Below are positions 13,451 through 18,601 of a DNA stretch of 32,239 nucleotides, in pieces. Position 1 is the first letter of the stretch. Each line of letters begins with the position of its first letter. The stretch is from Haloquadratum sp. (GTDB taxonomy: Archaea > Halobacteriota > Halobacteria > Halobacteriales > Haloferacaceae). A program made the position numbers and the translations under genes. The stretch covers positions 1 to 32,239 of the forward strand of contig JAQCNF010000181.1 of the NCBI GenBank assembly GCA_028275165.1, written 5' to 3'. Below the pieces are notes generated by a model. It did no database searches, was not told the origin of the DNA, and worked only from the letters and a program-made list of their open reading frames with translations.

Positions 13451-14842
13451 TTATTCCATTTTTATCCGTCGAGAGGCAGCAATTGCTCGCTGAGTGAGTG
13501 CTTCGATAGAAGTTGAGTGCTCACTTGAAAGACCTGATAGAATTGGACTGCTAAATGGACTCCGCCACTGTGAGGGAATAGACGCTGCACCAATGTGTGC
13601 GCCGTAGACTGCGCCGACGACTGCCGCATGTGAATCGGTATCAAATCCACTTTGAACGACGGTTCCGAGCGCTTCGGTTATCGAGTCGGCGTGATCCAGT
13701 GCAATAGCAATGAGTGCTGCATTGGGAAGAGCATGAGACCATTCTCTCTGGATGGATTCGTCCCACTGCTGGTGTATCCTCTTAATCTGGGTATGTGCTG
13801 AGGCGTCTGAGTTACATATCGAACGAAGAGATGCCGCAAGACGGCTCTCCGCTGGAAGAAACGAAAGCGACAATCTTAGTGCTTCTGTGAGATCTCCAAC
13901 CAAAGGCGCGATTGCAGTCAGAACAGCGACCCATAGTTCGGCATATATGCCGTTTTTGACGTGGCTGAGCAGAGCATCACGAACTGCGAATGTAGCTGCG
14001 TGAGTCGGTTCGCCGAGGCAGAGAAGTCCCCAGATCGGACCACGAATGAGCGCACCAATATGCTCACGATACGGGTTGTCCCGCAGTCCGGTCTCTGGTG
14101 GTGAGATACCATCGAGGAGATTTCGATATGCGACTCGCTCAGCAGTGTACGTTCGCAACGCTGGGAGCTGTTTAATCCATGTCGTTCCGATATCCTCTGT
14201 CTGCAATTCAGCACCACACGTTTCGACAGTCCGAATGTTGACGAACGTGTAGTCGATATCATCATCTGGCGGTATCTTTTCAATATGATTAATAAATGTG
14301 CTTGAGTCGCGACCTGTTGCCTCGATATTGTGAAAGATATTGTACTGATTAATCACACTATCAGCAACATCTGCATGAAGAAACCGTTCGATCGGATACT
14401 GATTACTCTCCTGTAGAAATCCGTGAATGCGCTCTCGTGACCACCCCTGCACTGGGCTGCCCAAGAGACATCCCGCAATGGCACCCATTAGCCCGCCTTG
14501 AATTGTGTCTTTCTCTGAGATCGTGCCTGGGTCGCCAATATGTGGGGACTCAAAGCTTGGCGCTGCCCGCTTGATTTTATCCAGCGTTGAAGGCTCTGAG
14601 TACGCATAATTTGTTCGAAGTGGAGATGAGCGTGCACGAGCGGCTAATGTCCGCACTGCATCAGGATCTGGATTCTCGCGCATGAGTAACTCATCAAACC
14701 TGGATTGAAGATGCTCAATATCTCGTCCCGCTGTGCGACTCTGATGACGCTCAGCCGCTAACCACTTCGTATCTGGGGTGAGAAACAACGGGTGTGGAAG
14801 TCGGTCACCATCTGGATTATTCACGGGGTCTGATTCGTTCAT
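13451..14842 (-). CDS. ADP-ribosylglycohydrolase family protein
   Basis: A 463-residue protein from the ATG at 14842 (a GTG three codons upstream is in frame). The all-helical ADP-ribosylglycohydrolase fold begins near residue 110 with GGLMGAIAGCLLGSPVQGW. A metal-ligand segment follows (PPDDDIDYTFVNIRTVE), and the second metal motif GFDTDSHAAVVGAVYGAHIG, which usually reads GxDTDTxAA, lies near the C-terminus. About 110 N-terminal residues precede the domain and look unique. Relatives remove ADP-ribose from proteins or hydrolyse related ribosides using two magnesium ions. It lies 38 bases after the ECF ATPase gene on the same strand, so it is probably the last gene of that operon and may cleave the imported riboside. 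Substrate unknown. Confidence 0.83.
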   Translation of the reverse strand: MNESDPVNNPDGDRLPHPLFLTPDTKWLAAERHQSRTAGRDIEHLQSRFDELLMRENPDPDAVRTLAARARSSPLRTNYAYSEPSTLDKIKRAAPSFESPHIGDPGTISEKDTIQGGLMGAIAGCLLGSPVQGWSRERIHGFLQESNQYPIERFLHADVADSVINQYNIFHNIEATGRDSSTFINHIEKIPPDDDIDYTFVNIRTVETCGAELQTEDIGTTWIKQLPALRTYTAERVAYRNLLDGISPPETGLRDNPYREHIGALIRGPIWGLLCLGEPTHAATFAVRDALLSHVKNGIYAELWVAVLTAIAPLVGDLTEALRLSLSFLPAESRLAASLRSICNSDASAHTQIKRIHQQWDESIQREWSHALPNAALIAIALDHADSITEALGTVVQSGFDTDSHAAVVGAVYGAHIGAASIPSQWRSPFSSPILSGLSSEHSTSIEALTQRAIAASRRIKME

Positions 14843-14880
14843 ACCTGACACATATCCTGTTTACCTATTGGTTCTATGTA

Positions 14881-16575
14881 TCAATCTGTGCGAGGCGACG
14901 CGGAAAGATGACGCTCGATTTCGCCAACACTGGTGACGTGCTCTATTTGAAGCTCCTCAGCTATCTGTGCAGCGACTGGCCGTTGAACACCTGCCTTGTC
15001 CATCACCCTCGGCTTATTGAAGACTTTCGTGGGTGTTCCGTCTGCAATAATCTCACCGTCAGCTAATGCGATGATTCGATCACCGTGTTGCTGTGCAAAC
15101 TCCATATCATGTGTAATACAAATCACGAGGCGATCTTCTGAAAGCGTATCAATCACTGAGCCGATTGTGTCTCTCCCACGACGATCTTGCTCGCCAGTCG
15201 GCTCGTCGAAGACCAGTATCGACGTATCCATCGCAATGACGCTCGCCATGGCGACGCGCTTGCGTGTTCCCCGGCCGAGTTCGTAACTATTCATGTCTCG
15301 CACCTCCTCAAGATCAAGCAGATTAATGACTGTGTCTACCTGCGCATCAACGGCGGTATGTCCAATATTCTCTGGCCCAAACCGAATTTCCTGACCGACC
15401 GATGACTGAAACAGTTGTTCATCTGGGTCCTGAAAGACCAGTCCGACGGTCTCTGCAAGCTCGGCGACGCTCGTCGACTCTGTGAGCGTTTCACCAATCT
15501 TGATTCTCCCCTCTGTCGGGGTAAGCAACCCATTGAGTAGCTTAGCAAACGTGGTTTTGCCAGATCCGTTTTCACCTATTAGCATCACGCACCCATCATA
15601 TAGACGCGTGGAGACATCTGAAAGTGCCTGAATATCATTATCGTATCGGTATGAGACTGAATCGAAGCTAACGCGTGGCGTCCCTGTCTCCTGATTCATC
15701 GACTGTTCACCACCGTTACTCGAACTGATAACGTCGTGCTCTTGGCAGAACTGAGTCGCTTCCGCGGTCGTGAGTGGGAGTGTCGTTTCGCCACTTAGGC
15801 TCTCCTGTGATTGCAGGTTTCGAGCTAATTGTGCTGTCGGAGGGATTGTAACCAGTTCGTCTACAGCTTCCGACGCGAGAACACGACGTGGAGTATCGTC
15901 CATAACGCAGTGACCATGATCAAAAACCACTAGCCGGGAGGCACGTGGTGCAAGACGGTGCATATCCTGAGTAATAAAAATGACTGTCAAGCCCCCCGCA
16001 GCAAGTCGTTGGGCAATATCAAATACCGCCTCGCTTCCGTCAGGATCTAATTGCCCAGTCGGCTGGTCAAAGACAACAATATTTGGTTCGAGCACCAATA
16101 CACTAGCAATGGCAACACGCTGAAGTTGTCCACCTGAGAGCGTTGCTGGGTCCCTCTTCTGAAGATGAGAGATATTCACCGCTGAAAGAGCATCATTGAT
16201 TGCTGTTTCCATATCGGACGGTGTCACCGCTCGTTGCTCGAGGCCGAACGCGATTTCGCCTTCGACAGTCATAGCCGCTCCACTTAGCTGCTGTGTCGGA
16301 TGTTCAAACACATAACCTACCTCTGTACCGAGCGTTGCAATGTCGGCTGTTGTGCTGGTGACTTCATTGATTCGAATTTCGCCTCTGAGAGTGCCATCGT
16401 AGAAATGCGGAATAAATCCGGGAAGCATTTGAGCGAACGTCGTCTTGCCCGCCCCCTCGGGTCCGCTCACCCCAACGAATTCAGCTGATTCAATAGACAG
16501 TGTAAGATCCTGTATGGCTGGGTCGTGTGCGGTATCATAGGTGAATGAAACGTCTTCGTATTGGATTTGACTCAT
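14881..16575 (-). CDS. ECF transporter ATPase, two fused ABC domains
   Basis: A 564-residue fusion of two ABC ATPase domains (about 1-240 and 298-530), the counterpart of EcfA plus EcfA' of energy-coupling-factor importers. Domain 1 has Walker A GPEGAGKTT (38-46) and signature LSGGQ (146-150), but the Q-loop residue is Glu91, the catalytic Glu is Gln171 (VVFDQPTG) and the switch His is Gln203 (FITQDM). Domain 2 has Walker A GENGSGKTT (334-342), Gln382, Glu458 (VFDEPTG) and His489, but its signature reads LGRGT (433-437). The altered positions therefore all meet in one composite site, leaving the other canonical. Its ATG overlaps the ecfT stop codon by four bases (ATGA). It powers substrate uptake with the two membrane proteins upstream. 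Confidence 0.92.
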   Translation of the reverse strand: MSQIQYEDVSFTYDTAHDPAIQDLTLSIESAEFVGVSGPEGAGKTTFAQMLPGFIPHFYDGTLRGEIRINEVTSTTADIATLGTEVGYVFEHPTQQLSGAAMTVEGEIAFGLEQRAVTPSDMETAINDALSAVNISHLQKRDPATLSGGQLQRVAIASVLVLEPNIVVFDQPTGQLDPDGSEAVFDIAQRLAAGGLTVIFITQDMHRLAPRASRLVVFDHGHCVMDDTPRRVLASEAVDELVTIPPTAQLARNLQSQESLSGETTLPLTTAEATQFCQEHDVISSSNGGEQSMNQETGTPRVSFDSVSYRYDNDIQALSDVSTRLYDGCVMLIGENGSGKTTFAKLLNGLLTPTEGRIKIGETLTESTSVAELAETVGLVFQDPDEQLFQSSVGQEIRFGPENIGHTAVDAQVDTVINLLDLEEVRDMNSYELGRGTRKRVAMASVIAMDTSILVFDEPTGEQDRRGRDTIGSVIDTLSEDRLVICITHDMEFAQQHGDRIIALADGEIIADGTPTKVFNKPRVMDKAGVQRPVAAQIAEELQIEHVTSVGEIERHLSASPRTD

Positions 16576-17336
16576 AGAACACTCCAGAGTATCATTCCCG
16601 TTACCCCTCCAACAGCAAGGCCCCGAGTTGCCCAGTCAGCACGAGAGGCAGTGACGCCATGGATCGAACTTCGAGGTCCAGAAATGGAGAATCCTCGAGC
16701 TTCAAGCGCGAGTGACCGAGTTTGTGTCGTGATGAGTGCCCCGATAGTGAGTGGGGTGAGCAGTGCAACGAGTCCGCGGATACGCCCACGTATCGACCCA
16801 GAGGTATCTAATCCTCGCGAGCGCTGAGCATCGCGAATCTGGACGGCACGTTCCTGGAGTGTCGGAACAAGCTGTAAAGCCGTGACGAATACATAACTCA
16901 GTTTGTATGGAATACCAACTTCGTACAGTGCCGTTGCTAAACGCCGTGGATGTGTGACTGTGATGAACAAGAGGCCAGCACCGACGAAGACGGACAAAAT
17001 AGAAAAAAACTGTAAGCCAGAGCGAACACCCGACTCGAAGATCACTATGGGACCAATCTGAAACAGAATCCCACCTGCATTGAAAATAAGACCACGGATT
17101 ACGACAAGTCCAATTCCGAGTGGGAGGAGTGCAATAACTGCCGCTCGTGCCACAGTCGAGAACACCTTTGCAACGAATGAAGCGCAGACAAGAAGGGTGA
17201 ATAGTCCAAGTCGAATCGTCAGCGGTGCGATATATGCTGCTACGATGAAGCACCCAACGAGCAAGAGTTTGGTCAATGGGTGCAGTCGATGGAGTGCTGA
17301 CTTTCTGTGCTGATATCGAATAAGACCATAACTCAT
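16572..17336 (-). CDS. ECF transporter transmembrane protein EcfT (CbiQ family)
   Basis: A 254-residue membrane protein with about five to six helices. The start RYQHRKSALHRLHPLTKLLL is the typical CbiQ/EcfT N-terminus (small cytoplasmic head with HRLHPLTKL). The long cytoplasmic coupling region carries the two Arg-containing motifs that contact the ATPases: AQRSRGLDTSG, and LALEARGFSISG. EcfT joins the S component to the ATPase pair. The ATG at 17336 is six bases past the stop of the S-component gene, and the 3' end overlaps the ATPase start by four bases, so the three are surely co-transcribed and translationally coupled. Confidence 0.92.
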   Translation of the reverse strand: MSYGLIRYQHRKSALHRLHPLTKLLLVGCFIVAAYIAPLTIRLGLFTLLVCASFVAKVFSTVARAAVIALLPLGIGLVVIRGLIFNAGGILFQIGPIVIFESGVRSGLQFFSILSVFVGAGLLFITVTHPRRLATALYEVGIPYKLSYVFVTALQLVPTLQERAVQIRDAQRSRGLDTSGSIRGRIRGLVALLTPLTIGALITTQTRSLALEARGFSISGPRSSIHGVTASRADWATRGLAVGGVTGMILWSVL

Positions 17337-17342
17337 AGAGCT

Positions 17343-17975
17343 CTACTCGTCGGATTTGTCTTCACCACTAAAAACAGGTGCGGCAGTCGATGGTCGATAT
17401 CGGGCAGGCACCCGCTTAACGATCAACGCAGCGAGCACAGCACTCGTGATCTTATCTATTGGTTCAACCACGATCGTCTGGCCAATAACGGCCTCCCAGA
17501 CATTTGCGCCAGTCGCAGCAAAGAACCCAGTCACTGCATCAGAGCCGGTTCCAGTCACACCTCCGAAGGCCAACACTGTAATTGGTGCACCAGCGACGAT
17601 AGATATCACTGCAATGACGAGACCGACCACGACGATTTTTTGTATGTTTCGAAACCATCCAGTAATAGCCATATATCCTGCTGCCAATCCAAACAAGATT
17701 TGTAGTGGAGTGTAGAACCAGAATGTTGGATTCACGATGAATCCTTGCGCAATGTTAACAAATAGACCTGCAACCGCAGCCGCCCACGGTCCAATCAGAA
17801 TAGCGATTATGATGACCCCTAATGCATCAAGATAGAGGAATGGGACGCGGACTGCATTAACTGCATATGCAGCGACAAGACTAATTGCAATCCCAATCGG
17901 AAGTAGCACCCACGTTTGTGTGGTGAATTCTTTTTGAATACGAGTAATAAGCGATTCCGTTACACCAGTTGACAT
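17343..17975 (-). CDS. ECF transporter S component, substrate unknown
   Basis: A 210-residue membrane protein with about six helices, first in the operon. Helix 1 carries small residues at regular spacing (AISLVAAYAVNAV), as used to pack against EcfT. A following segment, VPFLYLDALGVIIIAILIGP, with WAAAVAGLFVNIAQGF is the usual S-component pattern of a conserved aromatic/Asp loop followed by a Gly/Asn-rich helix. A Gly/Thr-rich loop (GGVTGTGSDAVTGFFAATG) probably closes the binding pocket. It does not match signatures I know for biotin, riboflavin, thiamine or cobalt. Neighbouring hydrolase and deaminase genes suggest a nucleoside or base-like ligand. The ATG is at 17975, about 25 bases past a TATA-like element, hence a leaderless transcript. 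Confidence 0.85.
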   Translation of the reverse strand: MSTGVTESLITRIQKEFTTQTWVLLPIGIAISLVAAYAVNAVRVPFLYLDALGVIIIAILIGPWAAAVAGLFVNIAQGFIVNPTFWFYTPLQILFGLAAGYMAITGWFRNIQKIVVVGLVIAVISIVAGAPITVLAFGGVTGTGSDAVTGFFAATGANVWEAVIGQTIVVEPIDKITSAVLAALIVKRVPARYRPSTAAPVFSGEDKSDE

Positions 17976-18139: not shown

Positions 18140-18601
18140 ATGTCTCCCCCAGATACTGAGCGTTCACACGAGGCACATATGACTGAGGCGATAGAGCTTG
18201 CACGAGAGGCAGCTGACCGCGGAGATGACCCCTTTGGGTCTGTGCTGGTTCGAGATGATACAATCGTAATGCGGGAGTCAAATCGCGAACATACCGAATC
18301 TGATATTCGGCGACATCCAGAACTCCATCTCGCCTATCGTGCCTGTCAGGCATATTCACCTCAAGAACGTGCGATGATGGCGATGTATACCAGCACTGAG
18401 CCATGTCCAATGTGCGCGGGCGGAATGACCACTGCTCATTTTGGGTCTGTCATATACAGCGTCGGAACCGACGAACTTGCGCAGTTTACTGGGTCACAGT
18501 CACCGGTTCGTGCTGAAGATATCCTCAGCGGAGTAACTGAGGTACATGGACCGGTATTAAACGATGACGGACGTCGCATTCATCAAGAGTTCGATTGGTA
18601 G
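18140..18601 (+). CDS. Nucleoside deaminase (cytidine/guanine deaminase superfamily)
   Basis: A 153-residue zinc hydrolase. The first zinc and proton-shuttle motif is HPE at residues 59-61 (RRHPELHLAYRACQ), where most relatives have HAE. The ligand His59 and the catalytic Glu61 are kept. The second motif is PCPMC (88-92), giving Cys89 and Cys92. The N-terminal ADRGDDPFGSVLVRDD is the substrate-binding block of the cytosine, guanine and tRNA-adenosine deaminases. It would deaminate a free base or nucleoside in the cytoplasm. The short length and lack of a tRNA-binding tail argue against TadA. It shares a promoter region with the ECF uptake operon, so it may process the imported compound. Confidence 0.87.
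   Translation: MSPPDTERSHEAHMTEAIELAREAADRGDDPFGSVLVRDDTIVMRESNREHTESDIRRHPELHLAYRACQAYSPQERAMMAMYTSTEPCPMCAGGMTTAHFGSVIYSVGTDELAQFTGSQSPVRAEDILSGVTEVHGPVLNDDGRRIHQEFDW

Follow-up and report, generated by a model that had tools for sequence, protein, structure and literature searches.

A fused ECF transporter ATPase of Haloquadratum with one degenerate and one canonical ATP site

The window, a stretch of 32,239 nucleotides from a Haloquadratum sp. genome, encodes an asymmetric two-domain ATPase which, judging from sequence comparison, very probably drives a dedicated ECF importer encoded in an S-T-AA' operon; site 1 of this ATPase is predicted to be non-hydrolysing, site 2 is predicted to be the working site, and the importer is probably one for nucleosides. 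Under the composite-site rule, head-to-tail nucleotide-binding domains (NBDs) share each ATP site (PMC7756269). Site 1 consists of the Walker, Q-loop and switch His elements of domain 1 plus the domain 2 signature and D-loop and is degenerate; site 2 is the reverse combination and is canonical and invariant. Degenerate sites are well known in exporters, but as far as our search terms reached in the open-access literature, none has been described for an ECF importer, in agreement with the first-pass annotation of this locus; the only paper retrieved for ECF together with a degenerate site concerns yeast Pdr5, and an E. coli Dpp paper mentions degenerate sites in a figure legend only.

How many hydrolysing sites an ABC importer needs, one or two, is an open question of mechanism, and the models of ECF transport in which ATP binding expels the S component were derived from modules canonical in both sites. 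A naturally occurring ECF module with a single working site, accompanied by half-decayed relatives and canonical outgroups, would permit direct comparison of the roles of the two sites, the ATP stoichiometry and the release of the S component. The same systems would provide a stepwise series for the evolution of degenerate ABC sites, so far known mainly from exporters, as well as a candidate ECF importer for nucleosides.

Operon and architecture of the ATPase

The ATPase is encoded on the minus strand (Table 1), stop codons being abundant on the plus strand of the same interval, and both halves of the protein match ECF ATPase models (TIGR04520, 410.5 bits with a cut-off of 315; TIGR04521, 377.2 bits with a cut-off of 330; two stretches in each case). 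The start of the ATPase gene shares 4 bases with the EcfT gene, which is preceded by the S component gene. The latter has no Pfam match; the AF2 model of its product (pLDDT 90.4) retrieved ECF S components as all of the top 16 Foldseek matches, with probabilities of 0.87-1.00 and weak E-values (0.04-0.33). Given that two ECF ATPase domains, an EcfT gene and an S-component-fold protein are encoded on one strand, this locus is an S-T-AA' ECF operon, and its sequence predicts an ECF importer mediating uptake of a micronutrient-type substrate.

Table 1. Genes and ATP-site residues of the ECF operon and its downstream neighbor in the window
Feature	Coordinates	Strand	Match or remark
Fused ECF ATPase (EcfA-EcfA'), 564 aa, one degenerate and one canonical ATP site	14881..16575	-	TIGR04520
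Glu91 (GAA), Q-loop Gln position, domain 1	16303..16305	-	Glu in 23/23 haloarchaeal orthologues
Domain 1 signature L146-S-G-G-Q150, intact	16126..16140	-	Predicted to serve working site 2
Gln171 (CAG), catalytic Glu position, domain 1	16063..16065	-	
Gln203 (CAG), switch His position, domain 1	15967..15969	-	
Domain 2 signature L433-G434-R435-G436-T437 instead of LSGGQ	15265..15279	-	Serves degenerate site 1
Gln463 (CAA), domain 2 D-loop, usually Leu	15187..15189	-	Gln in 23/23 orthologues
Domain 2 Walker B D457-E458, intact	15202..15207	-	Site 2
Domain 2 switch His489, intact	15109..15111	-	Site 2
EcfT transmembrane component, two x-R-G motifs (QRSRG, EARG)	16572..17336	-	PF02361 1e-26; EcfT PDB chains 2.9e-18
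S component (substrate binding), 210 aa, CD3073-like	17343..17975	-	NF045596 110.9 bits, below cut-off 180
ADP-ribosylglycohydrolase-fold protein	13451..14851	-	PF03747 1.6e-40; 29 bases downstream of the ATPase

Domains 1 and 2 align with EcfA1 (6e-39) and EcfA2 (1e-39), respectively, of the group II EcfA1/EcfA2-EcfT modules (5jsz, 4huq, 9kym), the T gene product aligns with EcfT, and the fold of the S model is that of S components. Unlike the window ATPase, the wild-type EcfA chains in these alignments are canonical (Q, LSGGQ, DE, H); furthermore, in the window the ATPases are fused and dedicated to a single S component, and one site is degenerate. The nearest named family of the S component is CD3073 (NF045596), on which no paper was found in the open-access literature. 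Assignment of the window protein to this family was rejected in view of the curated cut-off, and none of 197 genomes searched from the window's phylum encodes a protein scoring above it; the members above the cut-off with adjacent ATPases (L132, L133), in contrast to the window, carry a canonical LSGGE in both ATPases. Compared with the nearest clade, the S component of the window is 67-72% identical, versus only 47-54% for T and both ATPase domains, so conservation within the system is highest in the binding subunit.

All four alterations reported in the first-pass annotation, Glu91, Gln171, Gln203 and LGRGT, are present when residues and codons are read on the minus strand, which that annotation had left unstated. 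Domain 1 retains K44 and also G41, the second Walker A glycine, and domain 2 retains K340 and Q382. The AF2 model of the ATPase (pLDDT 91.3, pTM 0.90) matches over the whole chain fused NBD pairs of importers, namely those of the M. tuberculosis systems DppABCD (DppD, TM 0.69) and OppABCD (OppD, 0.72) (8wdb, 8j5s), the best whole-chain structural matches, which likewise have two NBDs per chain forming a sandwich but are peptide importers with 20-24% identity to the window ATPase. When compared to P-gp, the model scored 0.67 with the ATP-bound form and 0.36 to 0.45 with several inward-facing or apo structures. The model supports the usual canonical two-NBD sandwich, which would place the altered residues in one site. 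Pairing of like domains in homodimers (D1-D1 or D2-D2) can be ruled out on logical grounds, as no complete site would result from either.

Distribution of non-canonical residues between the two sites

The comparison covered 60 A/A' pairs, with eight residues scored in each site. The haloarchaeal set, assembled from genome searches and a search for related loci, comprises 23 fused orthologues including the window; broken or partial copies (L028, L040, L084/L094) were excluded. Among these 23 orthologous pairs, 130 of the 184 site 1 residues are non-canonical, compared to 0 of 184 in site 2, a positive outcome of the co-occurrence test proposed in the first-pass annotation; because the rows of this table are related by descent, approximately 10 events, rather than 182, underlie these counts and those for the bacterial pairs below. 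The orthologues in which the same site is affected come from several genera and families.

The individual changes are not equally widespread. The first-pass annotation had grouped four of them, and this grouping is borne out for Glu91 and the broken domain 2 signature (S434 and/or G436 lost), which are found in all 23 orthologues, and largely for the switch His of domain 1, which is lost in 20, but only in part for the catalytic Glu of domain 1, which is lost in only 10; 9 of these 10 also lack the Walker B Asp (QQ or RQ). Two site 1 features can be added to those already described, namely the D-loop Gln463 of domain 2, which replaces Leu in 23/23 orthologues (alignment columns are on average 57% identical), and the absence of the second Walker A Gly from domain 1 in 21 of the 23 haloarchaeal proteins (the window not among them) and in 11 of 19 bacterial pairs, a loss never seen in domain 2.

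That the window encodes a sick copy or pseudogene from a single MAG is extremely unlikely. Its branch in the tree is long and broken copies exist among its relatives (L028, L040), but the 564-codon frame and the S-T-AA operon are intact, site 2 is fully conserved, the S component is close in sequence to those of the nearest relatives (see above), and the site 1 changes are common to 22 further orthologues. Homologues with the same domain layout and canonical residues do exist, but are confined to other subfamilies at ~30% identity: 16 other haloarchaeal fused ECF ATPases, one of them (L002) encoded in the genome of the window itself, are likewise two-domain proteins and are canonical in both sites, with 2/128 versus 0/128 non-canonical residues, the two deviations being in the D-loops of L082 and L083. 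That the altered codons stem from faulty assembly or base calling is also very improbable, as Glu91, the signature loss, Gln463 and Gln203 recur in independent genomes; such an error would be easiest to envisage for Gln171, which is one nucleotide away from Glu, is known from a single assembly, and is not shared by the nearest relatives, the window being alone in its 6-member clade in having lost the catalytic Glu.

Several haloarchaeal copies (L040/L163, L028/L165) contain frame breaks or lack part of domain 1, with domain 2 intact, and could be pseudogenes or assembly errors; the broken copies L028 and L040 also show the lost domain 2 signature.

S components of this type were searched for with NF045596 in Bacilli and Clostridia and in the phyla of a Methylomirabilota MAG and of the window, and the surroundings of the matches were examined. 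This search yielded 19 S-T-A-A' operons with separate ATPase genes, from Bacilli, Clostridia and Methylomirabilota. The A' signature is broken in 19/19 of these operons (e.g., FDLPPATRKFVA and HDLSLSEKKLLC) and the D-loop Gln is mostly present as well; the A protein keeps LSGGQ and, mostly, Q, DE and H. In these pairs, 52 of 152 site 1 residues are non-canonical versus 1 of 152 in site 2, the single case reflecting an A' frame cut short (L151). In the same locus, A has Glu at the Q-loop position, an independent further decay. In three pairs from Bacilli (L152, L154, L155), the catalytic Glu of A is replaced by Asp and its switch His by Ser, and its Walker A motif contains a His; these pairs form a branch of their own and represent an independent second decay of the same site.

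Order of decay and a possible mechanism

In a tree built without the trait columns by a quick method, with many open forks and long branches including that of the window (1.31), the degenerate pairs form one group (support 97) and the haloarchaeal fused proteins form a group nested inside it (support 100). The fewest changes on this tree are 1 for the A' signature, 2 for the Q-loop, 1 for the Walker B Asp, 3 for the catalytic Glu and 4 for the switch His, all within the degenerate clade. With L151 set aside, approximately 10 changes in domain 1 compare with 0 in the matching residues of domain 2 (sign test by hand, p ~0.002); the single A' signature change leaves an independent-pairs test of signature loss against domain 1 losses uninformative.

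The A' signature is already gone in the separate-gene relatives, in which A is still mostly intact, and this, together with the parsimony count, suggests that loss of this signature was the oldest step and preceded the fusion. The loss would have occurred when the ancestor still had separate genes, leaving the catalytic residues of A free to decay stepwise from then on. Fusion as the cause of the asymmetry is ruled out by the same separate-gene bacterial pairs. The original reading of the window thus needs two additions: the feature predates the fusion and is common to bacterial separate-gene systems, and the decay was stepwise.

Known exporters with a degenerate site (TAP, CFTR, TM287/288, MRP1) resemble the window ATPase in combining one canonical and one degenerate composite site, with changes in the NBD2 signature and in the NBD1 catalytic Glu or switch His (PMC7756269); NBD2 signature changes are present in all human degenerate sites (PMC7756269). 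The window protein differs from them in its ECF importer architecture, without exporter TMDs, and in the fixed Q-loop Glu and D-loop Gln.

Two other scenarios need to be considered for site 1. The first is neutral decay, whereby site 1 lost its function along with the A' signature and drift then altered the rest of its residues, so that the asymmetry brought no advantage and the importer simply ran on one site. The stepwise and lineage-specific character of the losses, with 3 changes for the catalytic Glu and 4 for the His, is compatible with this scenario, as is the variety of residues found at one place (Walker B DE kept, DQ, QQ, RQ, DD). We nevertheless consider it doubtful: fixation of Glu91 and Gln463 in every haloarchaeal orthologue, against the mean column identity given above, does not resemble drift, and K44 and the remainder of domain 1 are as conserved as domain 2. 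In the haloarchaeal set, the mean pairwise identity is 53.8% for domain 1 and 55.7% for domain 2, with 49 and 51 invariant columns, respectively, and with conservation equal to that of domain 2, domain 1 is not a dying domain. Moreover, K44, G43, T46 and Y13 are invariant in 22 aligned orthologues, and in view of the invariance of K44 and Y13, ATP binding at site 1 is likely to be retained.

The second scenario is that both sites hydrolyse ATP and the altered residues merely tune the kinetics, site 1 being slow rather than dead. The catalytic Glu of site 1 is kept in 13/23 haloarchaeal orthologues and 16/19 bacterial pairs, and for the many orthologues that keep it slow hydrolysis at site 1 may be possible. 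As a general account this scenario is unlikely given that the trans signature is broken in all pairs and that the window additionally lacks Q, E and H. Furthermore, a study on group II ECF ATPases reports that E-to-Q replacement of both Walker B glutamates together abolishes transport, the share of each single site being left unsettled there (PMC7755397).

Under the favored model of an asymmetric ATPase, site 1 would still bind ATP and serve chiefly as a fixed half of the sandwich formed by the NBDs, and site 2 would hydrolyse approximately one ATP per cycle; this hydrolysis would drive closure and opening of the dimer, movement of EcfT and release of the S component, and would reset the module. 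This scheme draws on published work on group II ECF transporters (PMC10368641, PMC7755397) and on degenerate-site exporters (PMC7756269). A more inclusive scenario, to which we assign an even chance, is that these systems comprise an undescribed ECF subfamily (S-T-A-A', from Bacilli to haloarchaea) importing nucleosides, in which a non-hydrolysing site became fixed once the A' signature was lost and one ATP is spent per cycle; the bacterial members with separate genes would then be intermediates that have survived from the evolution of a degenerate ABC site.

Substrate and gene neighborhood

A nucleoside substrate is proposed because many of the loci have nucleoside hydrolase or phosphorylase genes next to them; for the family the substrate is likely to be a nucleoside or a related ribosyl compound, and for the window this is less certain. 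Of the operon loci, 11 of 21 in haloarchaea and 9 of 19 in bacteria have a gene for a PF01156 hydrolase or a PF01048 phosphorylase as a neighbor. In all 11 haloarchaeal cases, as well as in the bacterial loci L136, L138, L146 and L192, the operon is adjoined by the nucleoside hydrolase; uridine/purine phosphorylase genes are found beside S in L144, L145, L150, L151 and L194, and a PfkB kinase gene by L139. In the 16 genomes searched with PF01156, 19 of the 30 matches lie within ~8 kb of the operon by coordinates, the loci of one clade being related. None of the probed nucleoside genes is present in 9 of the 19 bacterial loci. A literature search on ECF and nucleoside hydrolase or phosphorylase returned no paper on such a transporter (titles and abstracts, open-access literature).

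The genome of the window encodes a single nucleoside hydrolase, and does so on another contig; next to the operon, the window has only the PF03747 gene, whose link with nucleosides is weak, and a deaminase gene. The PF03747 gene is found near the operon in the window and in eight related haloarchaeal loci, mostly upstream of S in those eight; it stands in the place of the nucleoside hydrolase, except in one relative that has both. The deaminase gene (18140-18601, plus strand), divergent from the S component gene, encodes a TadA/cytidine-deaminase-like protein (PF14437, PF00383) that could act on a nucleobase or nucleoside.

One genome (G008) has two copies of the system from two clades (L021, L043), one beside an ADP-ribosylglycohydrolase gene and the other between two nucleoside hydrolase genes, possibly for two substrates. 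Solitary S-like proteins are encoded next to a nucleoside hydrolase in several Clostridia (L193, L195, L196, L198), where no ECF module was detected in the vicinity; members of the same S family probably work there with a shared (group II) module. In two Bacilli, a gene for a Crp/Fnr-type regulator (cNMP_binding, HTH_Crp_2; 3459-4169 in L144 and 6349-7101 in L151) adjoins the phosphorylase-S-T-A-A' cluster.
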